From the NCBI GenBank assembly GCA_903813345.2, contig CAIIXF020000007.1:17781564-17845563 (forward strand): a stretch of DNA of 64,000 nt, read 5' to 3'. Made by a program: the position numbers and the translations under genes. This document shows positions 369-64,000 of this stretch, one piece after another. This DNA comes from Owenia fusiformis (taxonomy: Eukaryota > Annelida > Polychaeta > Sabellida > Oweniidae). Under the pieces are notes generated by a model. The model had not been told where the DNA came from, made no database searches, and was given only the letters and a program-made list of their open reading frames with translations. Position 1 is the first letter of the stretch. Every line of letters starts with the position of its first letter.

Positions 369-527
369 GGTATCTCGTTCACATTTATTTCCGTTTGCTA
401 ATTTATTTTTGCAGTCTTTGAACTTGTCCTGTACGTTCTCACAGAAAGACCACAGGCCACAGTCTTTATCCTCTTCGCATCCTCCACAGACCCCAGTTGT
501 GGATATACACACATTCTCCATGCATTG
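369..527 (-). CDS. Exon 12 of Cys-rich repeat gene: one 8-Cys module
   Basis: 53 codons, phase 0-0, acceptor TTTTAG and donor ACC|GTGAGA. It starts QCMENVCIS. If the donor were not used, the frame would run on 32 codons to a stop at about 273. A final exon may follow in 1-196, or further exons may lie outside the window. Confidence 0.75.
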
Positions 528-3500
528 CTAAAAGGTATGATAAATCATGATAGCATGCATCAAGATTTGATTCATTTACATACTGTATGTGTGTATAGTA
601 TGATGTATAGTATAGTATTAAATGATACAAACATCCATAAATATCATTTTTTTCATTTGAATAGTTTTTCTTAGATTTCGTACAGAATATATTAATTTTT
701 GATACCTCATCATCTGTACACTTTTTGCCATTTTCCAATAATCTTTTACACACTCGCGGAACATCAGGGGAGTTTTGCCCATGACAATACTCATCATATC
801 TACAGTTGAAGCTATCAGTACATTGTCCACATACACCATTACAGTGTCCATCGGCACATGCCTAAACCAACAATAAATCGACTCATTGAAACGAGCTTAT
901 CATTGGATAGGTTATAACTTGGTGCAATGTAGGAAGTTGTATCATTGAGTTTATGATATAAGTATTTATTCTATTTTCCAAAGTCGTAACCGTATCTTAA
1001 TGATGAGGGAGGGAATGTTAGACATATTTACGTCAGATCATTGTTTGGGATGATGGGGATTTATTTTTCCGATCAATTATGAATGACAATACCCTTGCTT
1101 GTTCTTTTTCTATTTGTGTTTTCACTTTTGGTCTCTATCCATATTTGGTTTTTGCTATACCTGTTTGCGACTGCATACGACTCCGACTTCTAATTTTACA
1201 ATACACTCGTTAGCCACGGATTGATCTTCGATACCATTGCAATATTGTGTACTGGGACACTGTTCGTCATATTTACAAGATCCGCAAAGACCATCACAGA
1301 TAGATGAAACACATTCCTAATATTAAACAAATCAATACGCATCATATTAACATAAACAATAACTGTCAGTGAAACTATTATTTAGCAAACAGCAGAACAG
1401 AATATTTTTCAAAATCATGGCCTACTGTTATTTAGGTCCTCAATGATTACCGATCAATGATGCTGGCGTACTGGTACTTTGTATGTTATAATGTTAGGTC
1501 AGATAAGAAATAAAATTCCTTGATAACCAATTATACATGCACAATATATATTATGCAATGGAGACCTTAAGTTGCACCAAAAGAAGGACTTGTTGAGCAC
1601 AGAGACAGTATATAAGTTTTGGTCATGCGAGATTTATCCACCTTTGAATGGATTGTTTTGCTGTGTTCATTTTACGGGGGTCTGACCCCTCCCTGCTGCC
1701 CGTTAGTGTTACGCTGCCTTCATTTATGATTTAACGCGAGGCCAACCCTTTCTATTTTAACTAAAAATGGTACTCAGGTACATTGCGAGGTGAATTTCAA
1801 AGACTTTCTTACATTTTAGCAATTTTTTGTCTGTTTGAGTCTACTAAATGGTGCTACATACAATGTAGGCATTATTGATGAGAAAGGGTGAATAAAAACA
1901 TACCAAATTTGTCATTATCTAATTATGTCATTATTTAAATAATAGTATGTGTTAGTGAATACAAATACCAACACTATCTGAAGAACATGCTGCACCCCGC
2001 TCTTTCTTATATGTGCATTGATTTCCTTCACAGTACTGCTCCGAAGGACATTCACTGTTACCAAAACAACTCGCACATCGTGAATCGATGCATATGTTGT
2101 CCAAGCATTCCTGAAAGCATTGAAGAGGATATATTGCTAGTCCTTCCATTTAGTTTTTGATCATTTCATCAAAATAATCTTGACTACTAACGTTATCATC
2201 ATTACACAGTCCCCCATTCGCAACTTTGTTGATGCATGCGTTTCCTTTCAAACGGTTGCAGTAGTCAGTCGGGTCACAGTCACTGTCTACTCTGCACTGA
2301 GCGCATTTTTGTTCTTCAACGATGCAAAATCCACCAAGGCAATGCTAAAGATAAAACATAAAATCATTTGAGTTACAGCTTCAACACGATCACCATCTTA
2401 AGACGAGCAATGGTTTAAATATACAATTACAAAGAACAGGATCTTAAGAGGTTCTGGACAAATCATTTGATTCTGGACTTGTCATATTTTTTTTTCAACG
2501 AAATCACATCCAAGGGTTGAATTTTTATTAGCTATTTAGAGAGTGAGTCCTGCCTAGTATTAATTTCAATAAAAAAGTTAAAATAGAACCCTATTTGAGA
2601 GTCAATCTAATACTTACATTACATTGATAAATTAAGGCAAATCCTGAAATATTTTTAAAGTGCATTTTTTTATGAAATATTATCCAGCAAGTATTTAAAT
2701 GAAACGGTCTTATTTAAATACAAATCATAACATGATATTTTTCATGAAACATTTTTCAATGAAATTCAATTGAAGGGTCAAGATAAAACGAGCTAATTTA
2801 GGTGAAAACCCTTACATGATGATGTGTTTTCATAACTTCTTTCATAAAATTCCATCAAGGGGTGAAGATAAAATGATCGAATTTAAGTGATTTAAGGATC
2901 ACGAGAATATGTTTTCTTTGATATTTTCTATGAAATCCCATCCAATGGTCAAGGTAAAATTTTGATTTTGATTTTGATTTGGTCACTTGTTCGAAAGATC
3001 CATATAAGGCCCATAGAACCATATAGGAACGTCATTTTGAATGTCACGTGATAGATCCATATAAGGCTTTTAGAACCATTTATGGAAAGATGAGGGAAGC
3101 CCCTGACACCTGTTTCACGATTTTTATGCACTTCATTATTGTACCGAAGTTTGCCGATTCGATTCGTCGTATTTCGGAATCCTGGTGACAATTTTATACT
3201 CCATTGGAGTATTTTTGACCTACTTCTTATGACGGAAATTCCCGAACCTTGTTCGGATTAATCCGGATTTTCTGACCTTCTTTATCTACCGAGATTTCAC
3301 GAGTTAACATTCGTCTCATTCCGGAATCCTGGTGACAATTTTATACTCCATTGGAGTATTTTTGATCTACTTTTTCTGGATTTTGCCCTACTTATTATAT
3401 CTTGACAACAAGCAAATCAAAAAGTTCGACATGAACGGGTCTCGATCAACTAACCTAGACTATGGAAGCCAGGCACGCTAACCATGAGGCCAACGAGCCA

Positions 3501-6500
3501 CCGATATGAAAGAACAAAAGTATTATATATTTATACCGAGCGTCAATTCAAAATGATCCTCACTTTTGTCTCCACTTAAATACGACTCTTCAGTTGTATC
3601 CAGAATAGTAGAACGCCTATGGCGCTAGTGAATAACCAAGTCCCATGTGAGTGGTTCGTATCCCTCCGTGATAAACTATTTTTGTTTTATTAAATACGAC
3701 AGAAAGGAGCAAGGTGTAGGTTGAAAACAAGACGTTAGTTTGTTTCAAAACAGTTTGGAAACATTAATCTCTGATAATTTAAGGTTTTCCACTCCTGAAG
3801 GGCCTCTAGATCTATGAAATTCAATAATCCACTCAGTAAAAATACGATTTCTCTGCAACCTGATGTCCAATCAAGATCATTCAAATATATATGTCTTCCT
3901 GACACGTTTGGGCGTCCGGGAATAAAATTGCTTGTGAAAACTATTTACAAAAGTGTTCCAGAGACCCTTATCTACTTGGCTAAGGTTTTATTTGAAGATA
4001 CATTGCCTTATTAGCAGGTAGAGGGGCATACAGAACACAGAAGCAAATGCTATGTTGAAAATTTTCTATATTTCAATTTGAACCTGTGTTTACATGTCAC
4101 ATAGGCCAGTATTTTATATGAGGATTATATGTACTTTCCTTGTTTACATGAACGTAAATCATTACATGAAATCTGCATTCTTCTGGGTTTAATCTGGGTT
4201 TGTATTGTCTTATTGGGGCTTTTCGACTTTAAAACAAACCCTACCTAAATGGATTGTGTCTCGGGAACGTTTTTGTAAATAGTTATTATAAACAATTCTG
4301 AAAGAATATCACATATTTTTGTCTTCCCGATTTCAGTCATGAATTACGTCAATTTCTCGTGCAAACATTGGGTAGACGTTGTCATAACCGGATGCCCGAA
4401 CGTGTCAGGAACATATAGATACTCGAATGATGTTGATTGAACATCAGGGTTGAGAGAAATCGTAATTTTACTGAGTGAGTTGTATCCAGTTGGAATCCCA
4501 GCGTAATGTTTTTAATTATATGGTTGTGCTTTGATTTTACGCTGAAAACATTTATAACTACGTCAACTTTATATTAAAACATTTATTATCTTTTCAGTTG
4601 TATTAAAATGTAAAATATGATATATGTCAGCTTATTGCTTTCTGGAGAACAGTCAAGGTTTAAATTTGGTACAATGAATCGGACACTCATGTAAATCGAC
4701 ATGGTTATAACATTGAACTCAATGCAGTAAATTAGTTATTTCTATGAATCACAGCGGGATTGGTTTCATTTTATATGATTGCCAACTCTGGCGGTTTTTT
4801 TTTGTAAATGCTTTTGACCGCTGTAAATGTGAAACTGATACAGTATTATTCAATTGTTTTATGTCTTGGTCACATTTGCTCCGATTTTCACTACGGCGCC
4901 CGGCCGATTGAGTATTGTGTTCAGAAATGTATTCAATTTTGAACAAAATACTCGCAGCAAATGTGATCCAGGCATTACACAGCGGTATTTCGAACATACT
5001 ATTGTTGCTTAACCACGACCTAGCCAATTTTAAAATCATACTCCTTATTTAAATCCAAGTAAACGATCAATGTCTAGGTATTTGGCGTTTGATGATACTA
5101 TGGCCCTTGGCGAATTATGATTAGATGAACCGAGGTCAACATTAATGTTTCTTGTACAAGGTCATCCCAAGGTCTAAGATAAATATTTAGGTATTTTACG
5201 TTTCAAGACCTTTGGACAAATTCGATTCAACGATGTATTAAAGTTAAAATGTATACAGAGATAAATAGAGGATATCCTATGATTTATGAGTGATATGATT
5301 TTTATCCACGAATGGATATGATATCTGCACGAGCGAGCGTAGCGAGAGAGTGCAGATATCAATATCCATGAGTGGATTAAAATCATATCACGAGTAAATC
5401 ATAGGATGTTCTTTTTATTCCATCGTTAAAGTCATCATCAGAATCGTCGGAAATTAAGTGATATATTTCGAATTTTCCAAACGATCCGGCGATGTTGACA
5501 CTAAGCCTCGTTTTGAGTCTGAAGTAGCAAAAATCCATAAACCATCGCATACGACGTCGTATGTCATGGCTAAAAAACCGTATGCTATGGTTAAGTGAAA
5601 ATTTGTCAAAAATATCATATTTTACCACTGATTACAAAAATACCGTTTTTATTTCCACATGTTATCCTATGAATATCATGCTAACTATGGAATAAAATAG
5701 GTTATCTCCTATCGTTTCCTTGTGTATACGTTTATGTCTCTGCGTAATAACGCAGATGCGAGCAGGTAGTTACCAATCTCACCACAAGGTGGCTCGTTCG
5801 GGTCAGATAGCATGGCGGGTATGGTAGAAAGTTCCCTTTAACTTAAAGTACATCTGTTTTCGTGGTTCAATTTTCATATCACCCTTAAAATGTATCTAAT
5901 AGCAATGCAATTAAAATATGTCCAGTGAACGAAAATGCAATACAAGAATAGATATTTCACTTTTTGTGATTTTGTAACAATGGGGTTATTTTTTGTATAT
6001 GTAACATGGTCATTTTCACATTTTATATTATTACTGTTCATATTAATCAATCCCTATTCATCTCAATATAACAGGTCCCTAAGTAGGTTGTTTGCAGTTT
6101 TACTCTTTTAATACCATGTTCACTTTTCACCTTGAGTTATTCAACTATGCAAACTGTGTCAGTTTTATATATCTATTGTTCCCCTATATGGTCTTTCTCA
6201 CTCACATGTAGCTGAGTTTGCATTGGGTGTTGGCTTGTCAGTAGTTGCTGTAAGAGTTCATGTTGTACATTACAGAGCATTGTATTTTAAACATTGAAGT
6301 TTGAAATATACTATTTTATATATATTTTAATTTGAAGTTCGAGTTTTTTTATTGCCACCCACGGGCCTTCCACACGCCCATTTACATATAACGCTTTGAA
6401 ACAACTTTAAAAAGTGAGCAATGTCAGTGTTGTGATAATAGAGAATTTTCGTTATAAGTTGTTTCAAAAACTTATACGTATACTTATAGTTTAAAGGGTC

Positions 6501-9500
6501 TTGTCGAACTAAAATCAATTCAAATTGATTTTCATAATCTGTACCAAGTGGGGCATAACTATTCCCGATATAGTCAAGCTTCATCATCAACTAGGGACTG
6601 CGAATACAATGTCCTTTGCTAGTGTCAATTATGAACACGATAAACTAAATTCTAGTTGACGGGTCCTTGTAGTGTACGATAAACAAGACCCTTTAAAGTG
6701 AATCACTACACGAACGAGTCGATCATTACAAAGTTCTCATGAAATTATAAGGTCAATTTTTAAGTTTTTACGTATAAAAGGGCCTTTATACGCAGATTAT
6801 AAACTTACAGAGTTGGATCTCCGCATAGTATATGTGTGGACCTACTGACCAGAATGGCTTATTAAAATTAATCGGCTGAATAGGCATAGTATCCAATCAA
6901 ATAGCTCGACTCATTCATTAGCTGAACTAATTCTCCCTTCGTTATTTCTACAAGGTGATTCAAAACGATCATCTACAAAAAATATATTTGAGAGTAGATA
7001 AATCTGTAAAACCCGTGTGCTATATCAGCCTATTTGATTCTAGAAAACACATATGACACAACTAAACATGCTTTACATCAAGGGGGTACGGATGGTATGC
7101 CATTGGCCCTTTTTATTACCTTCCTAGGAGATATTTCCCGACGAATTAGGAAATTATGAAACACCTTGTTTATTGGGTTTATAAGTATAAGTATACGTAT
7201 AAGTTTTTAAAAAACTTATAACGAAAATTCTCTAATAACGCCCCTCATACCTATTTATTACAGGTCGTGTAGACCATTGTTGCCTGATTTATAGCAAAAA
7301 CATTGACTTTTGCACGTTGATGATGATGATGATGATGATGATGCGCCTTTTATAATAGATCTCATATCTTAGAAGCGTATCAGTTCAAAAAATACTAGAA
7401 GACCTTACATATTTTGCCATGCACTGCGCCTATTCATTTGGCAATTCAGTTGTAAATTTTATCTTGAAAAAAATAAATCTTCCAAATTTTTTGAGTTTTC
7501 TTGCAGAAATCGCCTACCCCCCCCTCCATCCATTTTGTATGATCACAAGGCGTGATTTAAGCTGCTGATATTCTTCTTTAAACGAGTTGGATTTTCAAAA
7601 TCTATAAGTTGGACTCCCTTTATAGAAGCTTTGAACTGAATTTGCACTGCTTAATGCTGAAACTTTATTGTTTATCCATACATTTTAAGAAAAAATGTAT
7701 AAAAAAAGATGTTAAAGCCAAATGTTGCCCTAAAAATTCAGAAAATGTAAAAAATTTCGAATTTTCTATGTACAGGCCTTGTTGCCCCTTTAAGAAGCTT
7801 AATATGTAAATTATCTAATCAAACACTTCGTCCACCATTTTGAAACACTAATCAATCCAATCTGTGCTAGCGATTCATAGGGCGAGCCAGTGGGATATTT
7901 CCAGGGTTCATACACACCTGGAAATGTCAGGGAAATTGACTTGATTTTCCAAGTGCTGGAAATGTCAGGTAATTTTAAAATTAGGTCAAAAGGGCCAAAG
8001 ATGACCGGGAATTTTGAAACGGTAGACATGTCAGGGAAATGTCAGGGAAATTTGTATCAGTGTTGAAAAAATAATGTTCCAGAGATTAATGTTTCCAAAC
8101 TGTTTTGAAACAAACTAACGTCTTGTTTTCAACCTACACCTTGCTCCTTTCTGTCGTATTTAATAAAACAAAAATAGTATATCACGGAGGGATACGAACC
8201 ACTCACATGGGACTTGGTTATTCACTAGCGCCATAGGCGTTCTACTATTCTGGATACAACTGACGAGTCGTATTTAAGTGGAGACAAAAGTGAGGATCAT
8301 TTTGAATTGACGCTCGGTATAAATATATAATACTTTTGTTCTTTCATATCGGTGGCTCGTTGGCCTCATGGTTAGCGTGCCTGGCTTCCATAGTCTAGGT
8401 TAGTTGATCGAGACCCGTTCATGTCGAACTTTTTGATTTGCTTGTTGTCAAGATATAATAAGTAGGGCAAAATCCAGAAAAAGTAGATCAAAAATACTCC
8501 AATGGAGTATAAAATATAAGATTCCGGAATGAGACGAATGTTAACTCGTGAAATCTCGGTAGATAAAGTAGGTCAGAAAATCCGGATTAATCCGAACAAG
8601 GTTCGGGAATTTCCGTCATAAGAAGTAGGTCAAAAATACTCCAATGGAGTATAAAATTGTCACCAGGATTCCGAAATACGACGAATCGAATCGGCAAACT
8701 TCGGTACAATAATGAAGTGCATAAAAATCGTGAAACAGGTGTCAGGGGCTTCCCTCATCTTTCCATAAATGGTTCTAAAAGCCTTATATGGATCTATCAC
8801 GTGACATTCAAAATGACGTTCCTATATGGTTCTATGGGCCTTATATGGATCTTTCGAACAAGTGACCAAATCAAAATCAAAATCAAAATTTTACCTTGAC
8901 CATTGGATGGGATTTCATAGAAAATATCAAAGAAAACATATTCTCGTGATCCTTAAATCACTTAAATTCGATCATTTTATCTTCACCCCTTGATGGAATT
9001 TTATGAAAGAAGTTATGAAAACACATCATCATGTAAGGGTTTTCACCTAAATTAGCTCGTTTTATCTTGACCCTTCAATTGAATTTCATTGAAAAATGTT
9101 TCATGAAAAATATCATGTTATGATTTGTATTTAAATAAGACCGTTTCATTTAAATACTTGCTGGATAATATTTCATTAAAAAACGCACTTTAAAAATATT
9201 TCAGGATTTGCCTTAATTTATCAATGTAATGTAAGTATTAGATTGACTCTCAAATAGGGTTCTATTTTAACTTTTTTTATTGAAATTAATACTAGGCAGG
9301 ACTCACTCTCTAAAAAGCTAATAAAAATTCAACCCTTGGATGTGATTTCGTTGAAAAAAAAATATGACAAGTCCAGAATCAAATGATTTGTCCAGAACCT
9401 CTTAAGATCCTGTTAAAGGAGAAAGTGTCGGAAATAAGTTATATGAATATGTTATACATGTATGAACGCCAATTGGAAATATGGAGTCAGTACAATATAT

Positions 9501-12500
9501 ATCGTACCTGATCTTCACTACATGACCCACCTTGGTCAGCCATCTTCGTGCACTTGTTGGCAGTAAAGGGATCACTAATAAAATCACAAAAGTGTCCTGC
9601 TTGACAACCAATCTCAAGAGAACATTCCGAACATAAATTGTTGTCACATACGCTGCTTTTGCACACCTGTTAGAAAGAAGCATAAGCTAACATCATTATA
9701 TGCAATGTAACGGAAACAATAATAGAGAATAATCACCAATCTGCATAATCCCATAGTACAATCCAATAAAACACTTATCAATACATTATTTCATTGAAAC
9801 CAAACATGGTTCTATGCATATTAGGTATTTTAGAGGTTCTTTCACTTGCTATTTGGACGAATATGAATCGTCAGCCACTAGCAATATTAAAAGTGTAAAC
9901 AGACGCCATGGCAAGTGGAAACCAAAAGTCAACGTCAATGTAAATGGGGTTAAAAAATGTGCAGAACTGTCAAAACGAGACACATATAAAATAAACCTAA
10001 CAACAATTACTTACGGATTCTTTGCTACACTTGGCTCCTATTTCCTTACGTGGTTTACAATAAATTGATGCATTACAGTACTGATCAGTTTGACAGTCAG
10101 CATCATTAATGCATTCACTACAAGTGCGTCCTACACACATATCAGTTGAACACTCGGAGTTCTCATAGCAAGTCATGCCCAACGACTTGACTCGTTGACA
10201 TGTGTTGGGCCGTTCAGCAACGTTTATAAATGAACAGAAATATCCAGTGGCACAATCATTATGATTTCTGCAATCACTACATAAGTCATTCACACATGCC
10301 TCCGACAAGCAATTGTCATTCGTAGAACACAATTCTCCAAAGGGTAGTTTTGGTTCACATTTGCTTGGCTGAGCTGTATCAGCAAGACTTTTACAATAGT
10401 GTTCATCGGGGCAATCCAAATGTGTACTACAGCTGGAACACAGTCCAACAACACAATGCAATCCATTGCTGCATTCGTAATCAAATTTACATCCATTTCC
10501 GAATGGTTTTGTTGTTTTGCAGGTGTTTATGTTTGGAGAAGATGGGACAAGATCACAATATTCATCTATGCCACAGTCAGATGTGTTTTGACATTCAACA
10601 CAGATTTGCCTCACACATATGTTACTTAAACATTCAGATTCAGATTCACAATCACTACCATTATCCTTTCTTTTAAAACATTCATTGTGTGTTATATTCT
10701 CTCCAACACTTCTACAATAGCTTTCTGGTGTGCAATCAGAATGAGTCCTACATTCGGCACACAAATTATCGACGCAATATAGACCAAGGCATGCTTCGTT
10801 AGTCTCACATGGTTTTCCCACACCAGTTGCTACTTCACATGTGTTAACACCATCTATATTGACCATACAATATTCACCTGTTGGACAGTCCTGTGAATCC
10901 AAACACTCGGTACATACATTTGAAACGCACGAACCTGATACGCACACAGTTTCTTCATTGCAACTTGATCCCATCGAGGCTTTCGGAACACACATAGTTG
11001 GAATCCTAGTGCTTCCTAAATTCTTGCAATATGATCCAGTCCTGCAGTTGATATCAGAATCACATTGACCGCACAATTCATTGTGGCAGAATGTCGTTAC
11101 ACATTCTTCATTAAATGAACATGAAGAACCAAATCCTATTTTTTGAGTACATACATTTGGGAAGTTTTTACAAAATTGTCCCCTTCCACAGTCAGAATGG
11201 TATTGACAGTTTCCACATTGATTATTAATACATCTGTCCTTACACTCATAGTTCAATTCACATACTGATCCTATTTCCTTCATAGTTTCGCAAGTATAGG
11301 TAAGTGTTGTGTCACAAAATTCATTTGTGTCACAATCGGACGAATCATTGCATTCACGGCAAATGTTTTGAATACACCTTTTGGAAATACAGTCAATGTC
11401 AATGTTACACGAACCTCCATTTGGTTTAATAGATTGACATACACCTTTTGCATCACACAGTTGCCCAAGGTCACATTCTTCTGATGTCAGGCACTGTATG
11501 CAGATATCTCCTATACATCGTCCAGATATGCATTCATTATCACCGACACATTGTAGGGAATTAGCAAGCTTATCCGAGCAGATATTAGGGACAAGTATAT
11601 CTCTTTGATTTTCACAGAATTGGTTACTTGGACAGTTTGAATCATCTCTGCATTGTGAACAAATCTGATCTATACATGATAAACCACCATTACATGCGTT
11701 ATCCGTAGTACATGTTTGTCCCAATGTTCGTTTTGGTTTACAATTATTTCCACCCTTTGGTGTAATATCACAATATTCCCCGCCAGAACAATCACTCGAT
11801 TTGCTACATTCTACGCAAACATTCGATATACACCTTTTAGTTATACATGGTCTGTCGTTTACGCAGTTGGAAGCAATTGCAATGGCTGATAAACAGACTG
11901 TTGGCAATGTTTGACTATTTATGTTTCTACACACTGAACCAGGCTCACAATCTAAATCAGAACTACACTTCCCACAGAGGCCATTGTGACATTGTCCACC
12001 TCGACATTCCTCATTGATGGCACATGCATGTCCGAATTTCACAGTTGGTGTGCAAATGTTTGGAAGACTAGGTGAATTGATGTTTTTACAAAAGTGCCTT
12101 TTGCCACAGTCAGTATGAGCTTTGCAGTTGCCACAAATGTTTTCTATACATATGCCCCTGCATTCACTGTCAGCTTGACATGCTGAACCTATATCCATTT
12201 GAGGCTGGCAACTATATGCAGCTTGGACGTCTGTTGTATTGCAGTACTCCTGTGGTCCACAATGACTCGAATCTTTACATTCACTGCATATTCCATTGCC
12301 ACATTTTTCTGATTTGCATTCTTGATCTGTTATACAAGATGCTCCATTTTGCCACAAAGGCTGGCACATGTTGCTTTTGTTGCACATATGGTCGTCATCG
12401 CATTCATCAGATGAAATGCATTCTTTGCACACATTATCTTTGCATATGTCAGACGTGCATTCTCTATCATTGATACAAGGACTTGAGCTTTTCTTTTTAC

Positions 12501-15500
12501 CCACACAAATATTTGAAACTGTCGGATCGTCAGTGTGCTCACAATACTGGGTCATTTTACAATCGGAGTCGTTACTGCATCCAGTGCATATATTATCAAC
12601 GCATTTGTATATTTCCTGACAAACTAAGTCTCCGTCACATTGTTGACCAATGCCAACTTTAGGTTCACACGTGTGACCACCGTTGGGAACTATTTTGCAA
12701 TATTCATCGCTTGGGCAGTCGGAAGTCATTCTGCACTCGGCGCAGACTTGTGAGATACATTTCCCGGTTGAGCATAACCTATCTTCGTTACAACTTGAAC
12801 CAATGTTAGAAACTGAAGATGTGCACATGGTAGGGAGAGTGATACTGTTTGTGTTTGTGCAAAATGAACCGGGCATGCAATCGCTATGTGTGATACACTG
12901 TCCACAAATGCTATTGTGACACAAACCCGTTTCACATTCTTCATTCTTTTTACACGTAATACCAAATCTGGTAACTTGTTTACATTCATTTGCTCGTGAA
13001 GATTTGTTGACATTACCACAATATTGTTCTGTTGGGCAGTCTGAATCGCTTTCACATTCGCCACAAATGTTTTGTATACATTTAATTTCACACTCTTTGT
13101 CAGATGAACATTCTACACCGAGTTCTTTTAATGGAACACACTCATTTGGAAGTCCAGGTTCTAAATCATTTGTGCAATAATTATCCTCCTCACATTCTTC
13201 ACTGTTTTCACATTCACCACAAATTGAGTCGATGCATTTTGATGTGCTACATTGCTCATCGAACTCACATGTTGTACCAAGTCTCTCGATTGGTGAACAC
13301 GTATTTAATGTTTCTTTGAAGGCACAATAGTAGCCAGATTCGCAATCTTGTGTCTTAGCACACTCTGAACAAATATTTTCAACACACTTAGATGATGAAC
13401 ATTGGTCATTAGAAGTACACTCACGTCCAATAAGCTTGGCCTCTTCACAACTAGTTCCTGATTCATTTGACACATTGCGATTGCAATATCTGTCAGGCCT
13501 ACAATCACTTGACTCGTGGCATTCTCCACAGGTTCCGTTAATACATTTCCCTGATATGCACTCATCAGCATTTTTGCAATAAGAATCGAGTTGTTTTAAA
13601 GATTGACATATGTTGGAAAGATCACAAAAATGGTTTAAATCACAATCAGATGACGTGGTGCACTCTCCACATGCCTGGTCAATACATTTTCCAGACAAAC
13701 ACTCCTCGGGCTTATTACAAAATAATTCCAATTGTTTAGGCTCTTCACACGTGTAGCTTTCTGAGTTGCAAAATGCAATGCCCGTGCATGTAGAGCTATT
13801 AAGGCATGGCACACATCGATTTACAACACATATATCTGAATCACACTCATTGTTTTGATTGCAGAAATCACCATCAAGCCTCACATGAGAACATGAAAAT
13901 GTTTCATTACAAAACTGATTAGATCCACATTTAGTGGAGTCTTTGCATTCACCGCAGATACCCTCCGTACATTTGCCCAAATCACATTCTGTCTCACTTT
14001 TACAAGGACTTCCATTAGTTTTCAACGACACACAGACATTTTCACTATTACAGTGCTTTTTGTTTTCACAATCGGATGATTTACGACATTCTCTGCATAC
14101 TTTTCGAATGCATTTCCCAGATTTGCATTCTCTGTTTGATTTACATTTTGCATTGGGTAGTTTAAGGTCAGCGCATGCATATGGACCCAATTGTTTAGTT
14201 TTATCGCAATACTGCTTTTCTGAGCAATTATGCCTACTAATGCACTCAGCACACAACGATTCAGCACATATTTCCGAAAGACATTCCGTATTGGTTTTAC
14301 ATGGTGTGCCTATTGCAGCTAGATATGTGCATCTTGTTCCAGTGTTGTGTATGGTGCAATACTGGCCATCCAAACAGTCAGCCGATACACTACACTCACT
14401 GCACGTGCTATTGATACATTTTTCAGATGCACACTCTCTATCATCTAAACATTGTCCACCTATCTCTAAAAGCTCGGTGCATTGTTTTACTTGGGATAGT
14501 GTGTCAATATTTGCGCAAAATTCATCAGAGTCGCAATCCTCGTGACTAATACATTCGATACAAGTGTTGTTGATGCACTTATCAGTTGCACAAGCTTCAT
14601 CAATATCACACGGTTCGCCGATTTTACTTATATTCGTACACTCATTAGCTTTAGAGAATACTTTTGAGTTTTTACAATATTGATTTGGCGGGCAATCCAT
14701 AATATCGTTACACTCACTACACAAATTGGCAACACAAAGTGTAGACAAGCAAACGTTGTCAGAGTTGCATTTCGCGCCTAGTGGTTGTAACGTGCTGCAT
14801 TCATTAGCAATGTTCGGGTTATCAGTGTTAGTGCAGTATTCCCCATTGTCACAATCAGTGTCCGAAGTGCAATCTGAGCACAACCCATCTACACAAATAT
14901 CAGACAAACAGACCGAGTCGTTTTCACAAGAGGAGCCGATCATCCCAACGTCTCTTAAAACGCACTTGTTTGGTTCTGTGAAATCTCCTGATTGTTCACA
15001 GTACTCCCCTGTATTGCAATCGGGGTCATTGTGACAATCAGCACAGAAACCCTCGTAGCATATGGAACTCTCACACCATTCATCTTCAAGGCATGAATCA
15101 CCGTATTTAAGTTGTGGGTCGCAGAAACTCTCTAAATTGGTGAATACATTTGCACAATAATGTCCATCTGGGCAGTCCCATTTAAACCAACATTCTACAC
15201 ACTTTTCTTTTTCACATACCATCGAAAAACATTCGTCATACACAGAACAAGGTTCCCCAATTTCTTTTCCAATCGAACATGAATTCGGTAATGTTTCAGT
15301 GTTAGTGTTTATGCACAAATATCCGTTTTGGCAGTCATGGTGTTTCTCGCACTCTACACATATATTTCGATTACAGAGGCCAGAGAGACACTGCACATTC
15401 TCATAACATATCTGGTTGAGATGAAGCTTAGGGAGACATTCCCAGCTATTGCTACAGAACTCATCGTTTGAACATCCGGATGAGGTACCACACTCCACAC

Positions 15501-18500
15501 ATAAGTTGTCCTGACATGCACCACTTAGACAATCCTGAAGCAAAATAAAACCATTTTAATTCATATGCTATCAAAAGCTATGGTTATGATCATGAATATC
15601 GATGGATGGACAATGTCTATACTTTGTATGGAATGAACGTATTTACTGACATGAGTTCATCATCTGGCAAAATGACTAACTTACGTTGTGGTCTGAGCAA
15701 ATGCTTCCAACAATACTCAGTTTACAAATATGGGCTGAACCAGGGTCATGTTTACATGTCATATTATCTGGACAGCCATCATTGTCCCTGCAAGTGCTGC
15801 AGAATCCACCAACACAAATGTTGCTGATGCAATTCTAAAACAGATAATGAAATTAACAGAATAAACAAAATCGATACTGTAGAAATTTGTCATCCACAGA
15901 GGTTGATTCAAATTGAATTATCCCTATCCATAAAAATGCACATGTGGTCACCAACCAACTATAAAATCACCGAGGCATTCTTTTCAACTAAAACAATATA
16001 TCTCATACCAAAATACACCGTTTATAAGACTTTAATTGCAAGGTCAATTGCTCTTTTCATCAGACAATTACAAAGCAAGTTACTTGTATTCAGTCTATTC
16101 AACATCCGATATCGTTTTGAAATTATAATTTTTTGCGATTGGCAATGTAATGTTAATCGATATTGTTTTTGTCCTAATTATTATTATATGCTGATTAAGT
16201 GCTAAATCATACTTTATCTACTGTACACTTTGAACGAAGCTCTTCTTTACGTCTACATATATTATCGCCCTCTTTCAGATCATTTATTTCGCAATAAAAG
16301 CCAGGTGGACATACATCATCTGTTGAGCACACTCTACATCTACCATCAAAGCAGTGACTACTCTTGCACTCCTAAATTAGGATAACATCCCTTTGTCATA
16401 CAGTGTGTCCCAAAAAAGGAAACCATCAATAGATTGCTTATTTCTCAAATATAAATAATAATAGGAAAATTACTTATTAAAGCTACCATCTGATAGGTTA
16501 TGATGTCCTCTTTCTTATGATACCAAAGTTGTCTATATTCCTTTACGAATGTCTGATTTATAAGGGATTTAAGTGACCATGTCAGAAATGAGTTTGTATC
16601 ACTTTCAGCCAAGTCAATTTCACCATCATAACAAAGTGATAAGTAACAACAAACATCAGGATATCACTCTTTTACTCATTTATTCCAATTAAAATTACAC
16701 ATATCATATTTAACACCCCTTTTAAATCCCAATGTCCATTCAAAGTTGTTTTAACCCCAGTGTCCTTCAACATGACCCCCATTCCTTTCAATGCAAATAT
16801 CTGCCCTTGATCTCATCGCACGTACTGCATCCCTGATGATGACACTGGAGTGACACTGATGATGACACTGGGGTTAAAACAACTTTGAATGGACATTGGG
16901 ATTTAAAAGGGGTGATATGTGTAATTTTAATTGGAATAAATGAGTATAAGAGTGATATCCTGATGTTTGTTGTTATTTATCACTTTGTTATGATGGTGAA
17001 ACTGACTTGGCTGAAAGTGGTACAAATTCATTTCTGACATGATCACTTAAATCCCTTATAACTCAGTCATCCGTGAAGGAAAATAGACAACATTGGTATC
17101 ATAAGAAAGAAGACATCATAATCTATCAAATGGTAGCTGTGAAATTTTCCTATCATTATTCATATTTGAGAAATAAGCAATCTATTGCTGGTTTCCTTTT
17201 TTGGGACACCCTGTATTCATATTCTGATTATTTGCAAAAATACCCATTGTTTGAATAGAATTTCGGAACTAGAGGACATCCCGCAAAGGACAATATTTGG
17301 AAAAGCAAACCCTTAGATATTAATTGAACTGTTTTCTTTTACCTCGTTTTCTTTACAGGACTGGCCGTTCCGTTTTCTTGGTGCGCATCTATTGCCTTTA
17401 TCCTTACTATAGGCTCTCTTGCATCGTTGGTCCTTGTTACAATGCTCATGAGTAAGACAACTTCCACATGTTTCGTCACAATACCCTTCCTCACACATCT
17501 TAAAGTTAAGAATGTAAAAATTTCAAAGTATCGCATTGATTTAACGTTTAATTTCAGCAAACTTCAACTACCACATGCCGTGGGGGATCATAATTGACGT
17601 ATGTGTGCAAATGAGAATAGTACAATAAATGTACATTGGAAATAATTGTGAATAAGTAAAAACTCCCAAAATGTATTCTTACTTCATTTCTGATACAGGC
17701 ATATCCATTCTCCAATTTTACAGCACAATGCAGGGCCGCACAATAGTACCCCATTGGACAATCTTGGTCTTCCAGACACATTAGTGCTTGACCGGCATCT
17801 AGACAAATGTACGACATAGAGGCCAAAGATTACATACCCAGTAACTAAAAAGGGCCTTATCACATACGATTTATTCTTTTTGGATTGCATATTTCGTTTT
17901 ATAGAGCTGAAAAGCCTCATTGTGATATACTTTGACTTCAAAAGTCTCATCGATGTGACATTGGGGCTTATTTGCCTGTGATGTGTGTCGGGGTGTAAAA
18001 CATAGTATGATAGCATTGTGTCTTGAGTTTGTGTGTGAGATCGTACTTTTGCAGTCAGGGCAAAACATTTCTTCCAGCAAAAAGTGTGAGAGCAACTGGA
18101 GAAAGAATTTTTGAGTAGTTTGAACGGTTTCTGACTGACGAAATATTAATGAAAAGAAAATGAGAAATAACTTTATTAGCTTACAAGCCTTTGGCAATAC
18201 AACCCTATCATGTAACTATGGAATAATATATCACGCACCCGATGACACCAATGCTGCTATTTTTCGACATTTCTTATTCAAACATTTCTCATCCAAACAG
18301 TGGCCTTTTTTAATCACATTCTTCGGAAAATTGACCACCTAAAACATTAATTGCATCATAGAATAATGTTCAATCGAGTGTGTACAACTTCAAAATGTCA
18401 ATTTAATTGTCAAAACTATTTCAAACGATATTTTACCGACCAAAAAATTCAAAAATGATTTAATGTCCTGTTTAAGAATTGTTCTTACTATTGAAAATGG

Positions 18501-21587: not shown

Positions 21588-21760
21588 TTAGTTTCTCCTC
21601 ATGGTCTCTTTGATCCAGTTCACATAGCTGGTAACGCGTGTGAAGGCCCCAGGGTAACCCCCTGGTCTATCAGAGCTCGTGAATGATGCTATCCCGGCCT
21701 GAACCCATTGTCCATTCTGCTTACACACTAGGGGACCACCACTGTCTCCCGAACAGATAC
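21588..21760 (-). CDS. Protease exon 7: catalytic Ser and C-terminus
   Basis: Starts in phase 1 with [12 protein letters not shown] and ends [12 protein letters not shown] before a TAA at 21588-21590. Confidence 0.92.
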
Positions 21761-24700
21761 CTTGAAATTATATGCGGACGTGATAATAATATTTTGATTT
21801 CAATAAGGTTTACATTGTAATGTAAATTAAAATCAAATGAAATACGTTATCACACTATTTATATTTAAAATATTCAACATCAGTTAGAATCATTTGTTTA
21901 ATTACTGTTTAAGGTATCATCAATCATGGTTACAGCTAGCAGTGCTCAACAGTGTTCCGATAGGTACATTAGGATTAGACGAGGTAATGGAGAAAACATT
22001 AAAGGAGCACGTAGGTTATCGCAGACAATTTCAGAAGGTTATATCTAGGATCATGACTATTTTCTGACAATGAACACAAGTTTATCTTTGAGATCAATTC
22101 ATTATCTCAAAGAAAATTATACACAGTAATAATAGAGTCAAACAAACTCGGAGATATTTAACCAGCAATCAACCCATCAACACACTTTTTCAAAGATGTT
22201 GACCCCATTTTCACCAAAAATGCAATCATTTTTTCAATGTTTAATGCAATTACTATTCTCTATTTTGATGTATCAAATAGTTCTTGAAAGTCCCTGGAGC
22301 AATCAACTTTTCCTTTTAGGAAATCGAACATGTCTCAAAGCACATTCTAATTATGCATTCAGAAATATAATAAAAGGTTGCATTTTTGGTGAAAATTATG
22401 TCAACATTTTTGAAAAAGTATGCTGATTGGTCCATTGCCCCTTCAATATCACTTAGGTCTCATTAACTAAATTATCAATATATATACTTTTCTTGAAGAT
22501 AATGAATGGATCTAAAAGATACACCCATGTTCATGATCAGAAAATATTCATAATTCAAGTTTGAATTGTTTGAAATTGTTTGCGATAACCTACGTGCTCC
22601 TTTGTTATTTAAAAACCCTTTACCCTTTGAAGCGAGATTGTATCCGGCACATACCCTATTAACCATAGGTGTGCCGTATATACGGTGACAAGTTTGATCG
22701 TTCACTTTCGGAAGTTCAACAGCTTTAGCCCGTGAAGATACACTAGATCCTGAAAAAGAACAAATCAAATGTCACTTCCAGTTATAAAAAAAATTATGGA
22801 CTTTAATTTGCAAAGCTGGGTATACATAACCACAAGTATCGTAATATAACGTGTTCTATGGATGGCCATCTGGACCACTTCATTGAAATACTTTTAACGC
22901 TTTTAAAACATACTTTTTAGGTCGTCGTCAATATTCACTTTGACATATATGCCGTCTGGAATTATTTTGAACGCCTTCAAAACTTGTTTTATTATTAACG
23001 CCATCTTATATCAAATCAATGACATGAATTGTACAAATATGTCGCCAACTGGTATGGACTGAAATCACGTCTGATCGTACTTGTCCGTTTGTACAATGCG
23101 AGAGAGAATTTAGAATTAAAGAAGTGATTGCCAAGTTAGTTTATAAAACATCTTTTACCTTTGGCTGTACATCCCCATCCTTTCATGATGCAGTCTTGGC
23201 CATCTCTCGGGAAGCTATTGTCGCCTTGTCGAGGTAACTTAACCTTCTTAATTTCGTTAAATTGCTCACCAGATGGGACTGACTTTTTCAGCTTCACCAA
23301 TGCAATGTCATTATTCCAATGACCTTGAGAAAAAAGATATATTGCTGATTTTATTTTGATATTTGATTAATTTAGGAATGTAATTGAAAGGTGCTAGTGC
23401 TTTCAAATTGAGTAGTTGAATTTAAGATTTCCGTGAGGGATGCCGAGTCAAGACAAGAGGTGCGTTTATTACACCCTAGGTAGAACAGTAGAACTAAATG
23501 AAAGAGAACGATTAAGTTTACAAACACGTGATCACAGTCACATGTTGCTTCACGACAAACACGTACGTTTTCAGGAAAGAAAGACACAAATGTATTGTGC
23601 CAGAATAAGGGATTTTCACCAGTAATGAACGTATACTTACTAGTTCTTTCATATTGTGGATGAATGAGTATCTTGTCTACATCAATGTTCCATTGCTGCC
23701 ATTCTTCTTTGTCAAATATTTTGCCAAGCACGTGCATGAGCCAGTCAGCAGCTGAAGGCTGAAGTTCAAAGGTGCATATACATTTCTTTTAAATACATTT
23801 AAGTAGAAGTGACATAAAGAAAAATGCCAAACGTATAGAAAACACACACGGTGGAACGTACCCTTCGCGCACAGTCTAGGTATAAACGGAAGTCGAACGA
23901 ATGCAAAGGGTAGGAGGAAAGAAACATTTGAGAACATAAATAACTTACCGTAAGGAAGCAAATTCCAAAACATCCCAAACGATTATTTAATTGGGAACAT
24001 CGAACATGTCGAACATTATTATCGAACATGTTCAGAGAATATCTATTCATACATCACACAAGTCACTATAACACGCCTAATCATCGACAACGTACAGTGA
24101 CAAAATATATGGGTGTACACTTTAGATGTACCTTGTCATATATTAACGATTTGAAGAAAAAACAGTAGATTTTAAGAGATTTATTTGAGGAATATGATGT
24201 TCAGCATTTCATTGATAATTTCTTGTGCATGCTCTTGGCAAGATTTTTAACTTTATAATTAATAATAACAGATTCTCGAGTAGTGCTTGAGTTTTTTTCT
24301 CGGTAATTCCACCCACATAATTGACCGATTGAAAAATGTTGGTTATATCCACATTTTCATTGTGTCTATTATTTCTATAAAAAAATATGCTTTTGTAATT
24401 TACACAATGATGAAGATTTAATAACTATTCACGTTTCAATAATGCAAATACTTTATTCGCTTTGATCACAACGTCCGAAGGTTAACTTTACTTCGACCCT
24501 GATCACATTTACAATTTGTGAGGAACATTATTGCTAGAACTCGTGTTATATCGGTAGCATATACTGAAACATGCAATTCTATGACCTCTGATTCATAACA
24601 TTATTTATAAATTTTAAACCAACTAGCAATGATTGCGACCCAGAAATATACATCGGATGATTTACCTTTATCTTTACACTGGCGAGTCTCACTTCCCAAT

Positions 24701-27700
24701 TCCCAGGGATTTTAGCTTGCCCCCTGCAACAAAAATACAGCATAAGCATCATATAGTAGGACAGAATGCAATTGAAATGCTGTGCTCTGATTGGTTGTTG
24801 TAAAATATAAAATGACTATATTATTTAGAATAATCGAAAATATCTAAAATAGAAAAATAATACTTAATATAAATATAAATCATATAGGTCTCAATACCCC
24901 TTGATATAACAGTTATTTTACCTATGTCCATCAAAACAATGGGCGGCTGTCATTATCCAGTTATCATTAAGAACTGAGCCTCCACAGTAGACCGTCGTGA
25001 ACATAACTGGAAGACCAAAAAACCTTGTGGTGGGAATCTTGCCCTGCAGAGAAACCAACCACGGCCATTCAGCCTCGTCGATCTCATCGCCTCCAATCAG
25101 TCGTTTGCGCCGTGAATGTGTCACAGCATCTATAATATTATAGTTATATACAAATAAAGCTTTGTGTTTCACTTTTTATCTCACAGATCGGGGAACATAT
25201 TGGTTTGATGCAAGTGTCCACAAGAAAACGCTTAAAGTCGAGAGGTGGTGAATGTGTAAATTGAGAAGGAGGGTTGTAATATATATCAGGTGTTCCAAAA
25301 TGAGACACTTTTTGACAAATATTATCTCGGCAACTGATAAACCAAATTCACAGAAAATTTGTACTAATATAAAAAAAATCAAGTAAATATTCTGTGAGTA
25401 ATAGGAAATTAAAAATAGCATGTCAAAAATTCCCATATACCGGAGCTCTGATATGAGACGTCTACATTATAGTGTTTGTACCAGCTATCATCTTCGCACG
25501 CTCGGTCTTCACTGCGTTCGATGGGAGCCGAGTGATGTCTGATTAATTCTTTTCGTTCATCCCAAATATCCCAAATTCAATTCATCCTCAAATTCATTGG
25601 AGGTGATATTGCTAGAATTACCCTGCGTGCAGAGTCTTGAAGACGAAGCTCTCTTTTAAGAAGTGAAGTCAAACGAATGCAAAGGGTATGCTAGAATAAA
25701 TACGGAAAAGTATTTTTGCTTTTTGTTTTCAATTCATTTTGACATACTGGCTTTAATATACACATATAATATGAACCAATCTCTTACATATTCATGGCAC
25801 TAGCAGAAGATACCATAAAGTGCCTTTGGCAAAGTTTTCCAAAAATTTGGCGTATCCATTGCTGAGAAATTACTTCCCATTCAAATTGCTTCCCATTTTT
25901 GAGGAGAAACGCTATTAGAGTTCCCATTGCGTTTCTCCGGTATTGGCTATTATCAACACGCTATCTTGAATTTCCTAGTACTCACATATAACATTTACTT
26001 GATCCTTTTCATATTTTTGTACCTTGCTACGGATACTCTTGGGCTACTTTATACACATTTTCAGTGAATTTGGTTAATCAGTTGTCGAGATAATACTTGT
26101 CAAAAAGTGGCCGATATATTTCGTCGCGTGAGAAGAGAACCAATGTTTCCTAACTAACACTTTTGTGTGCGAGAACCAAGAATACAATGTCTTCAATACT
26201 AACTCATCTTAAATCTAACGCTGAACAATAACTTTTTTACTCAAAAGATCAAAAATTCAAAATTGTGCTATTTATGCAATAATAACAAAATCGATGAAAC
26301 CATACACTTTTATATTGTGTGCCCAAACTCTGATATAATTGTAGGAAAATTAAATGAAGAAAACGAGTATAAAACTAAAGCCATAAATTTTTGTATCTAA
26401 TACGAAAAGCCTAATACATAAATCGAGACTGATTAAAACTAAAATCAGCTTTATCCAAGTAAAGGAAATCATAAAATATAAAATCAAAGATGAACAGAAC
26501 ATTGCAAATTTAAATGATACAAGAAACCTTCTATAAGACTTGGATATGAGCTATTGAATTATTAAGCCAATTAACTCTGTCGTATATTATAAAACTAGTA
26601 CTGTAGGCATCTATATGATTTTGAAGACTATTGTGCTATTGTAAAAGTAGCACAATGAAAGTGGTTTGGGATTCTGTTTTGAGATTCTCTCCCACTGCAT
26701 TTCCCAGAGCTTCTATTTAAAAAGTGTCTAATGTCTTTGCATGGTTTCTTAAACATGTTGTGAAGAGATGGGAATTAAACAGTTTTAACTTTGCTCATTA
26801 TTTTTGCCTCGTGTTTCCGTTTCGTGCAGTGTTTCAGATCTCTCTTGCCTTTAGCTGGGTATCTCACTTGAGGTACCAGGTTGAATTTGTATAATGTATC
26901 TTCTTTAGAATATGATCTTAGGTTGGGGTTCTGTGTTGCTCCTTTCATTGGTGACTTTATGTAAGAAAAGTGAAATGTCTCTTCTCTGCCTATTGTTGAT
27001 ATACTTTCATTCACTGATATTTGATCTTTTGATTTGTCAGTATTGTTCTGTGATGTTCGTTTTTCTAACTATATTTTGCTTCTAACGACAGGAGACTTCT
27101 CTTTTGTTTTAAGAGAAGAATTTCCTATCGTGGTAGATTTCTCTTTACCTTCAGCATGTACATGTAGGGAGGTTTCTTTTGCCATGGAATGCTCTTTTGT
27201 CTTATGAATTGAACTTTGTTTGACAATGGACCTCTCTTTAGTTTTATAAGTTGAGTATTTTATGATGAAAGTATTTTCCTTGGAATCATGAGTTGAGCTT
27301 TCTTTGCCAGCAAACTTCTCTTTTGCTTCATATAAAGAATTTTCTTTGACAGTGGACTTCTCTTTTGTTCTTACCCTACTATCACACCAAACTAGTTCTC
27401 ACTACGTTCTCGAAAACGGGCTTCAACTGTGTACGAACGGACTGGACCTACTAAGAACCGTTTGGGATCTATTTACAAACTTCATCGAACGTACTCGAAC
27501 GGATAGGTCCTCTAGAACTTAGACAATGCTCAAAATGTTCTCGTGGTCGTCACGTTCTACAATTAGAACGAGTGACAACGTACTATCGACGAGCTGCACG
27601 TACTACGAACGGAACCGTCGTACTTCAATCCTACTAGGGACGTTTTAACAACGAGTTGAACTGTCTGAGGACGTGTTGAGAACGAGGTAGAACTAATTGC

Positions 27701-36466: not shown

Positions 36467-38167
36467 TTAAATGTCACTTTTCTCTTTTATGTCCTGTATA
36501 ACTGTTTTAGTATCGAAGTCAATGGCAACCCTTTCGCATTGTTTCTTCCAATGCTTAATTTCCATGGTAACAAATGTCCATTTCATGATCTCATCCGCCC
36601 ATTTTTCTTTTTGTTCGCATAGGATTTTCTTTTGGTCAATTCTAGATTTGATATATTTACAAACATCTTCATCGTCATAATCCGTCCGTCTGTCTTCCCA
36701 CGCTTTGCTCCAAATTGACCGACTTACTTCATTAGGACATGTAGGGATCGTTAAGCCTCTGGAAGATTTCCTTAAATGTAATGCAATATTAACTTCTTCC
36801 GCTGATGGTCTGTAATTTGGGTCTTCGTCTAAGAAACGTTCAATATCAAAACAGTCTACAATGATTTCTTCCAAGATCCAGTAACTTTTTGCTATTTGTT
36901 TGAAAACCTTTCCTAAACTGAATACATCTGAGGATAGAGTCGGAGTATCTCCCCGTGTTAGTTCTGGGGCGATGTATAAATCATTATCAGAAGATGTTGA
37001 TACACGGCATGAATGGGTGAAACAACTTTGTTCAACAGTAGTGGCATTTCCCCATCCAGTTACAAAAACGGCAAAATTGTCATTGTCGTGAACACCGTAT
37101 TTAACAATGATGTTCGATGGACAGATGCTATTATGGACAATTCCGAGATTATGAACTCTTGCGATAACTGAGGTTAATAAAGAGAGCAAACGATAGCAGA
37201 ATACATCAGTTATAGCGCCCTCTTTTCTTCTTATTCTAAGGAAAGCTTCAATATCTGTACACGTTGTGAAACAGTCATGATTTACTTCACCTCCAGAACG
37301 AGTAACAGTTTCCTGATTTACATCACCAATAAAACGAGTGACAGTTGCATAATCAAGATATAGGGCAGTCGTGTGTTCCAACCTTATTGCCCCTAATAAT
37401 AACGGCACCTGTTTTATTTTTGCTTTTCTGATTTTTGCCAATACAGATAGGTGTATAAACGTGGAATTTAGAGTGTCAGCATGTTCTCGTTTCTTGCTTT
37501 CGATGACAACTGTTTCGACTACTCTATCTACTTTATCTTTATAAAATGTAGAGGCTATATTTCTTTGATTCCGACACATCCAACCCTTGTCAACTAAATG
37601 AGCATACGATCCTAAATAAATGCGATGTTTTGCACAATCGTGAAGGATGGCCGGGTTACCATTACCATCCTTCACAAATTCTATCTCAGAGCTGTTCAAT
37701 ATATCGACATCTTCAAGGCCATATGTTCGTTCAACAACCGTGTTAAACTTATCCCATCTGGTACCACGGGATATGGTTAGCGGGTGAGGTGTTTGAGAGT
37801 GACACGTTAGGGGCTGAATTGAGCTCCGTTGAATAATGGGCCAACCAATTTCTTCGGAGGTCGAGACTGAGGATGTTTTTTCTACGTCACTCTTTTTCTC
37901 TGGACTGTCTGTTTTATATTCGGATGTGAGAACCAAATTATCAAATGTAAGTTCACCGCTTTTATTCTCTCGAGCTGAGGATGGCTTACTGCCTGACTTA
38001 TCGCGGTTTCCAATGTCTACTTTGTCCTTTGGTTTTCTTGAATTCGACGTCGATTTGCCTCTGTCTCTTATCCGCTGTTCACAATCAAGTGTTACTCCCG
38101 GAAAATATGTCTTCATGTATTCAGTAAGTGTGTCACGAGGAGGAATGGGTGGTTTTATATCATCCAT
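36467..38167 (-). CDS. Intronless pseudokinase, 566 aa
   Basis: A single-exon frame of 566 residues. The first true ATG gives MDDIKPPIPPRD; the five codons before it open with TTG. Residues 1-200 are polar and Ser/Lys-rich, starting with a proline motif suited to SH3 binding. Residues about 210-465 have a protein-kinase fold signature: IVHNSICPSNI for the catalytic loop, VTGWG for the DFG region, YIAPE for the activation-segment end, SSDVFSLGKVF for helix F and EDPNYRPSAEEV near helix H. Both catalytic aspartates are missing (HRD reads HNS, DFG reads GWG), so phosphotransfer is unlikely and a scaffold or regulatory role is more plausible. A charged C-terminal region of about 100 residues may be helical. 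The frame is intact, so it is probably a live gene, perhaps an old retrocopy. Confidence 0.85.
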   Translation of the reverse strand: MDDIKPPIPPRDTLTEYMKTYFPGVTLDCEQRIRDRGKSTSNSRKPKDKVDIGNRDKSGSKPSSARENKSGELTFDNLVLTSEYKTDSPEKKSDVEKTSSVSTSEEIGWPIIQRSSIQPLTCHSQTPHPLTISRGTRWDKFNTVVERTYGLEDVDILNSSEIEFVKDGNGNPAILHDCAKHRIYLGSYAHLVDKGWMCRNQRNIASTFYKDKVDRVVETVVIESKKREHADTLNSTFIHLSVLAKIRKAKIKQVPLLLGAIRLEHTTALYLDYATVTRFIGDVNQETVTRSGGEVNHDCFTTCTDIEAFLRIRRKEGAITDVFCYRLLSLLTSVIARVHNLGIVHNSICPSNIIVKYGVHDNDNFAVFVTGWGNATTVEQSCFTHSCRVSTSSDNDLYIAPELTRGDTPTLSSDVFSLGKVFKQIAKSYWILEEIIVDCFDIERFLDEDPNYRPSAEEVNIALHLRKSSRGLTIPTCPNEVSRSIWSKAWEDRRTDYDDEDVCKYIKSRIDQKKILCEQKEKWADEIMKWTFVTMEIKHWKKQCERVAIDFDTKTVIQDIKEKSDI

Positions 38168-43002: not shown

Positions 43003-43475
43003 AACAGATATGTGTAAATCAAGGACTTAAAATATTGTCGCCACTTCGATATGTCAATCACATAAATTATATTATTTTCTATCTTTCCCCTATTGTGTGA
43101 TATATAAGCACATGATGTCATGTTGACTTGGAATATAAGACAGGTCAAGTTCCGTGTTCGTAGCCAGTTTCCTATTCAAGTCTACCTTGTTCAGAAAACA
43201 CCTTCAAAGTAAGCAAAAAATAATTATGACCTGCTGCTTATACGGATATATAGATATACGGATAAACAGAAGACAAAAATGCTATTATGAATGACCTATG
43301 AATTTGTTATCAACTATGACATAATGATACATATCTGCTAGTATGTAAATTATTACGTGTTTCTCAAATTGATTCGTACTCATCGCATTTTGAGTTCTTT
43401 ACCGATAATTATTTCCACAGTTCCACTACAACGACGATTCAACATACATTTTTCTATAAGATGAATACCTAGAAA

Positions 43476-44939: not shown

Positions 44940-44987
44940 CGTGATGCTTTTTCAACTTTCAGAGACTCACCCGAAAAAGCTTTTGAT

Positions 44988-63822: not shown

Positions 63823-64000
63823 CGTGTTTTACTATAATTATTTAACATTAAATCATATTTTTGTTAGTGTTTTGTCTTCAAAGTGTTGTCCTCAAGTCAC
63901 CTTTAAATGTTATTCCCTGCTTTTGTACTCCGTCGATAAAAGTTTTCATTACACAACTTGACAGCTTTATCATTCTCAAATATTCAATGTCAAATTCTTT
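63823..64000. other. Upstream region of the TSP1-vWA gene
   Basis: AT-rich, no clear TATA box; ends at the window edge. Confidence 0.4.

Follow-up and report, generated by a model that had tools for sequence, protein, structure and literature searches.

The gene and its giant exon

We analyzed a 64,000-nucleotide window of the Owenia fusiformis genome, in which the minus strand carries a gene built of repeated eight-cysteine modules (Table 1). Exons were called from open reading frames, GT-AG splice sites and the phase of the modules, all taken from the DNA sequence alone. One giant exon holds 36 of the modules. It has no stop in 1840 codons and its translation contains 288 cysteines, which is 36 x 8; the eight-cysteine parsing succeeds for 36/36 modules, and in their alignment the eight cysteine columns are invariant. 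An acceptor (...ttttgcttcag) lies directly before the exon and a donor (gtaagt) directly after it, with phase 0 at both edges. Based on the exon's own base composition, the log10 probability of a stop-free run of this length is about -58. The first-pass annotation had described 36 eight-cysteine modules in one intronless exon of 5520 bp, with the first module starting at an acceptor and the last ending at a donor, and the open frame, the module parse and the splice sites confirm this description and the exon's position. By these features it looks like a genuine exon. No array within it was listed when tandem repeats were searched for at the DNA level, and a phage protein search gave no match.

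Table 1. Exons of the giant-exon gene, super-repeat blocks and related genes. Positions are those of the window unless a C5 or C7 position is given.
Feature	Position	Strand	Basis or remark
U0 (first module), first half; exon ends in phase 1	18239..18338	minus	splice sites read; translation of 18240-18338
U0 (first module), second half	17683..17798	minus	HMM match 1.1e-4; flanks; translation of 17683-17796
U1, single-module exon, phase 0-0	17343..17498	minus	module match, splice sites
U2, single-module exon, phase 0-0	16213..16371	minus	module match, splice sites
U3, single-module exon, phase 0-0	15685..15834	minus	module match, splice sites
Giant exon, modules G01-G36 (Dickkopf_N-type)	10015..15534	minus	5520 bp, 1840 codons, phase 0-0
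Super-repeat block 1, modules 17-22	12166..13095	minus	offset-6 signal; 44.8% amino acid identity to block 2
Super-repeat block 2, modules 23-28	11248..12165	minus	offset-6 signal, block alignment
Super-repeat block 3, modules 29-34, clear for 29-31 only	10315..11247	minus	38.3% amino acid identity to block 2 (six modules)
D1, single-module exon; of the outside modules the most giant-type	9508..9666	minus	profile comparison, splice sites
D2, single-module exon	2192..2344	minus	module match, splice sites
D3, single-module exon	1973..2110	minus	module match, splice sites
D4, single-module exon	1161..1316	minus	module match, splice sites
D5, single-module exon	706..861	minus	module match, splice sites
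D6, single-module exon; D7 and the fused terminal exon follow outside the window	369..527	minus	module match, splice sites
D7, single-module exon beyond the window	C7:17780969-17781124	minus	module match, splice flanks
Fused terminal exon beyond the window (T1, T2 and a partial module)	coding C7:17780720 down to ~17780352	minus	
Tandem neighbour gene, downstream of the giant-exon gene	C7:17771975 down to ~17755421		eight-cysteine modules
Relative gene on C7 (one of a pair)	C7:7872211-7875393		eight-cysteine modules
Relative gene on C7 (other of the pair)	C7:7879903-7889023		eight-cysteine modules
Relative gene on C5	C5:9583505-9591296		eight-cysteine modules

On both sides of the giant exon the same module occurs as single phase-0 exons, three at the 5' side and six at the 3' side within the window, as had been counted earlier. 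In all nine, AG stands directly before the exon, at the residue preceding the first cysteine, and GT follows in the same phase. These exons are cut at the module boundary, so each internal module boundary of the giant exon corresponds to an intron position elsewhere. The first-pass statement that neighbouring exons keep one module each holds for these nine exons and fails at the two ends of the gene, where a phase-1 intron interrupts the first module and the terminal exon is fused, with two modules, a partial third module of five cysteines and a stop, and no intron between the modules. Because of these two exons, one module per exon is not a rule for the whole gene, and we rejected it as a description of all neighbours. 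The array comes to 1 + 3 + 36 + 7 + 2 = 49 modules plus a part. The predicted product is a long chain of about 49 Dickkopf_N-type modules, rich in disulfides and probably secreted, given that the family is cysteine-rich.

The giant exon matches Pfam Dickkopf_N (PF04706) in 30 stretches with an E-value of 1.6e-99 (326.6 bits against a cut-off of 25) and DUF7107 (PF23416) in 19 stretches with an E-value of 1.2e-44 (150.8 bits against a cut-off of 24.6). A single-sequence search of the PDB gave DKK4 matches (E 0.0022 and 0.029), and the module profile gave six weak PDB matches, all of them Dickkopf, the best being DKK1 (E 0.055). An AlphaFold model of two modules has a mean pLDDT of 88.2 and a pTM of 0.59. 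Its top Foldseek match of 103 is the N-terminal region of DKK4 (5o57), a weak match (E 0.67, probability 0.75; 2.0 A over 56 columns); no match in the list of 103 has an E-value as low as 0.001. The module thus appears to be Dickkopf_N-type by sequence, with weak agreement from the fold; since the fold match is weak, the family label rests on the sequence. Vertebrate DKKs have one such N-terminal domain and one C-terminal cysteine-rich domain. The likeness to Dickkopf proteins is the PF04706 module and the difference is the approximately 49 modules per chain, and we rejected an identity as a DKK Wnt antagonist, given the tandem N-type array and a terminal exon that closes with a partial module followed by a stop. 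Among the papers listed in searches of the open-access literature we found no tandem Dickkopf_N arrays and no paper on DUF7107.

A six-module super-repeat

Giant-exon modules that lie six apart have a mean pair score of 101.4. Of the 24 offsets scored, the remaining 23 give means between 77.7 and 92.0, the highest of these being that of offset 12 (92.0). When module order was shuffled, 0/5000 shuffles reached the observed score at offset 6 and 4/5000 reached it with the best of offsets 1-18; the period of six had been spotted by eye before the test, and therefore the all-offset figure (4/5000) should be preferred. Most of the signal arises where modules 17-25 are compared with modules 23-31. 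There, G17, G18, G19, G20, G22 and G23 each find their best giant-exon match six modules further along, and for G21, G24 and G25 the module at that distance ranks second; outside modules 17-31 only G08 has its best match six modules on.

The alignment of blocks 17-22 and 23-28, which contains 4 gap columns in protein, also has 55.8% identity in DNA and 39.9% at third codon positions, and it scores 808 where the median over 325 block pairs is 521. For comparison, blocks 11-16 and 17-22 have 32.2% amino acid identity and blocks 5-10 and 11-16 have 35.3%. In the third block, modules 29-31 have 45.7% amino acid identity to modules 23-25. The clear super-repeat is made up of modules 17-31 (15/36), and beyond it no clear block structure is seen apart from single pairs (8 with 14, and 4-5 with 15-16). 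Judging from these alignments, the block duplication is real but old. Neither block has introns, so the blocks were apparently already intronless when they were copied. With third codon positions at 0.40 identity, we found no dating and no DNA footprint of the first step.

Related genes and modules

We looked for relatives in four further regions and in the 40 kb adjoining the window; two of the regions and the adjoining slices gave full eight-cysteine modules, from which four related genes were delimited by a start resembling the first module and a fused end. In the C10 region the module profile found four partial five-cysteine matches only, and in the C6 region no match at E < 0.01, yet PF04706 is above its cut-off in both; these sequences were left out of the trees. 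The exon-structure comparison consists of the four relatives, and the C12 clusters, further C10 clusters, C2, C6 and other places with PF04706 lie outside it.

Among the 60 eight-cysteine modules of the four relatives, 52 begin at an acceptor and are followed by a GT in phase no more than 9 codons past the last cysteine; the remaining 8 are terminal-exon modules and two first modules. In 4/4 relatives the last exon is fused and carries two modules and part of another, as in the giant-exon gene, and the C5 gene has a further internal fusion, an exon at 9584901-9585131 with 12 cysteines, or about 1.5 modules. The giant exon is absent from all four. Because the relatives share single-module exons and the fused terminal exon but lack the giant exon, the giant exon is probably derived. 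Genome-wide searches gave at least 19 matches for PF04706 and at least 49 for PF23416, in each case 10 of them within the giant exon, and at least 11 for protein P0001, one of which is the giant exon itself. Among the matches listed in the protein search there is no second copy of the giant exon, and the longest open frame among the other matches listed in the three genome searches is 198 aa, in a match with three stops.

The tandem neighbour gene contains 300-nt units, each running from an exon through its intron into the beginning of the following exon, that repeat at 94% identity, with a third copy at 65% identity (ungapped), as well as 167-nt units that repeat at 93% and 90%. The Dickkopf_N-module family therefore also expands by copying exon and intron together. 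This agrees with the expectation of the first-pass annotation that recombination between exons carries introns along, here in recent exon-intron-exon copies of 90-94% identity, and it is by contrast with such copies that the giant exon becomes informative.

For the trees we used eight-cysteine modules only: 60 of the 69 matches in other genes, 12 modules from the gene's own flanks and the 36 giant-exon modules, or 108 in total. The rows dropped were 4 from C10, 3 from C5 and 2 from C7b, and the split U0 was also left out. The 108-module tree (53 columns) has 72 of 105 inner branches open, and giant-exon and other modules interleave in it; the giant label needs 14 changes, compared to a mean of 30.1 for shuffled labels (0/500 as low). 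In an AU test of one giant clade p-AU is 0.604, the tree constrained to that clade scoring 12.5 log units better. For the 48 modules of the giant-exon gene alone, a quick-method tree needs 10 changes against a shuffled mean of 10.8 (175/500 as low), which shows no clustering, and the AU test gave p-AU 0.353, with the constrained tree 9.5 log units worse. The 48-module tree groups T1 with G33 (89), D2 with G20, G26 and G32 (87), D1 and U3 with G04 and G05 (82), and T2 with G01 and G35 (82), all with a long-branch warning. As to whether the 36 modules form one clade, the free trees interleave them with other modules, mostly at open forks, and the AU test rejects one clade in neither set.

In leave-one-out profile comparisons, the giant-type profile is preferred by 30/36 giant-exon modules, a figure helped by super-repeat siblings (12/16 for modules 1-16 alone), and by 10 of the 72 other modules: 2/12 in the gene's own flanks, 3/12 in the C5 gene, 4/23 in the C7 pair and 1/25 in the tandem neighbour. 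The three outside modules that score highest are D1 (+8.3 bits), which is the exon directly 3' of the giant exon, C7b_15 (+8.1) and T1 (+5.1), which sits in the fused terminal exon. Mean non-cysteine identity is 0.219 among giant-exon modules and 0.197 among own flank modules, and because the giant-exon modules are nearly as unlike each other as the flank modules are, many of them could be old separate lineages.

In a colinearity comparison of low power, the giant exon matched none of the four relatives in module order (127, 300, 285 and 185 of 300 shuffles scored as high). The gene's own flank modules are not colinear with the same four genes either (220, 91, 64 and 171 of 300), while in the control pair, the close paralogues C7b2 and C7b1, 0/300 shuffles scored as high.

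Origin of the giant exon

Our best reading, and one we consider fairly probable, is that an exon was fused and then grew by duplication of blocks within itself. The starting state would have been a family of one-module phase-0 exons with a fused terminal exon. An internal exon would first have gained more than one module without an intron, either through a tandem duplication inside it or because one intron, or a few, were lost; this first intronless pair needs a separate step because copying between single-module exons carries introns along. Unequal exchange between module-coding stretches within that exon would then have added intronless modules, including one complete copy of the six-module block and a second copy of at least its first three modules. 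Splicing would include the long exon as a single phase 0-0 unit, whose main effect would be a longer protein. The first fusion step, the unequal exchange and the lengthening as function are what we infer. The first-pass annotation had also proposed that one exon expanded within itself; the super-repeat in intronless sequence and the absence of the giant exon from the four relatives favor this.

Alternatively, most of the array may first have been single-module exons, and recombination with a cDNA of the spliced mRNA may have removed many introns at once, followed by limited block duplication. Cases of adjacent introns lost together in several species, as a reverse-transcriptase model predicts, are reported in one published study, which also mentions other studies without an excess of adjacent intron loss (PMC3652778). 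The giant exon's edges are exactly at module boundaries with splice sites intact, as cDNA recombination would leave them, its module diversity is close to that among single exons, and giant and flank modules interleave in a poorly supported tree. However, modules 17-31 are block copies made in intronless sequence, so the loss of all 35 introns is not required, and no colinear source array was found in the four relatives, a comparison in which the gene's own flanks are not colinear either. We regard cDNA-mediated intron loss as possible but unsupported, and on balance rather unlikely. The earlier suggestion that a processed copy replaced a run of exons is not supported, with 0/4 relative arrays colinear (at low power) and no second copy among the matches listed. 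A more elaborate version seems to us quite doubtful: the giant exon would be a symmetrical cassette of 1840 residues whose inclusion or skipping leaves the reading frame intact and yields forms of about 49 and about 13 modules, its mid-gene introns would have been removed when a cDNA recombined with several consecutive exons, and freedom from introns would then have allowed the array to grow by six modules at a time, while in the tandem sister gene exons continued to be amplified together with their introns.

In the reverse order, which is very unlikely, the intronless array would have come first and the single-module exons would have formed afterwards, through introns gained at module boundaries or through exons shuffled out of it. 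The fused terminal exon common to the giant-exon gene and its four relatives means that some fusion is old, but 52/60 modules of the relatives are cut at the same boundary as in the giant-exon gene, and repeated intron gain is unlikely because many gains at exactly the same sites would be needed. An assembly error, a pseudogene or a chance frame is extremely improbable and was rejected: the open frame, all 288 module cysteines and the splice sites are intact, and repeat collapse or mis-joining would not create modules that share only about 22% non-cysteine identity.

The absence of introns was called unusual in the first-pass annotation, which overstates the case: in a published survey, 30% of the repeats with at least ten domains are contained in a single large exon (PMC1553488). 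The same survey treats long domain repeats in one exon and discusses both intron loss and within-exon duplication. Long repeats in one exon thus have published precedents. Here the same module has been amplified in two ways side by side, intronless in the giant exon and with introns in the tandem neighbour, and given a comparison of related species this is a natural case for asking if intron loss lets repeat arrays grow faster or in larger blocks. C2H2 zinc fingers and LRRs, which are other domain families, also form long domain repeats in one exon; in contrast to them, single-exon and many-per-exon copies coexist here in one gene. The C-zone of titin is a published precedent for a long exon with super-repeats, although its domains are Ig and FnIII and we claim no homology. 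The giant exon is titin-like in having a super-repeat within a single exon, with period 6 over modules 17-31, but in the middle-Ig super-repeats of titin the one-domain exons stay separate, while here the blocks share one exon.

Inverted repeats in the introns

Two introns of the giant-exon gene are largely taken up by inverted repeats. Nearly the whole of the intron between D1 and D2, the single-module exons 3' of the giant exon, is occupied by a long inverted repeat (window 2435-3773 and 8080-9414) with arms of ~1.3 kb, each in three segments, which are complementary over 758 nt at 100%, 436 nt at 100%, and 149 nt at 97%. The structure probably represents a recent element bounded by long terminal inverted repeats. 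On the 5' side, most of the intron between the single-module exons U1 and U2 is a hairpin-like, MITE-like inverted repeat (window 16398-17216), with 226-nt arms that are 93% complementary and 74-nt arms that are 95% complementary.

Related module genes

In the tandem neighbour gene (L002 7277-8788), exon-intron-exon units have been duplicated recently, and the modules are of two types that alternate. The relative on C5 has a 12-Cys internal exon (L008 4901-5131) in which ~1.5 modules are fused, and this exon is a second internal fusion within the module family.

Other features of the window

The remaining features are listed in the table. A Pfam search of the two Gly/His-rich open frames gave no match, and the open frame at 52314-53507, which overlaps the Mutator-like transposase match, is also without a Pfam match.

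Other open frames and Pfam matches in the window
Feature	Window positions	Strand	Details
Trypsin-family exons, 5' of the giant-exon gene	21591-25175	minus	PF00089, E 5e-13 and 5.1e-11
Kinase-like open frame	36470-38188	minus	PF00069, 30.3 bits, slightly below the cut-off of 31.7
Two Gly/His-rich open frames	43469-44951	minus	contain tandem 18- to 27-nt repeats
Mutator-like transposase match	53342-54181	minus	Pfam PF20700, E 2e-20
Spondin-like TSP1 match	63313-63828	minus	PF19028, 38 bits, below the cut-off of 41
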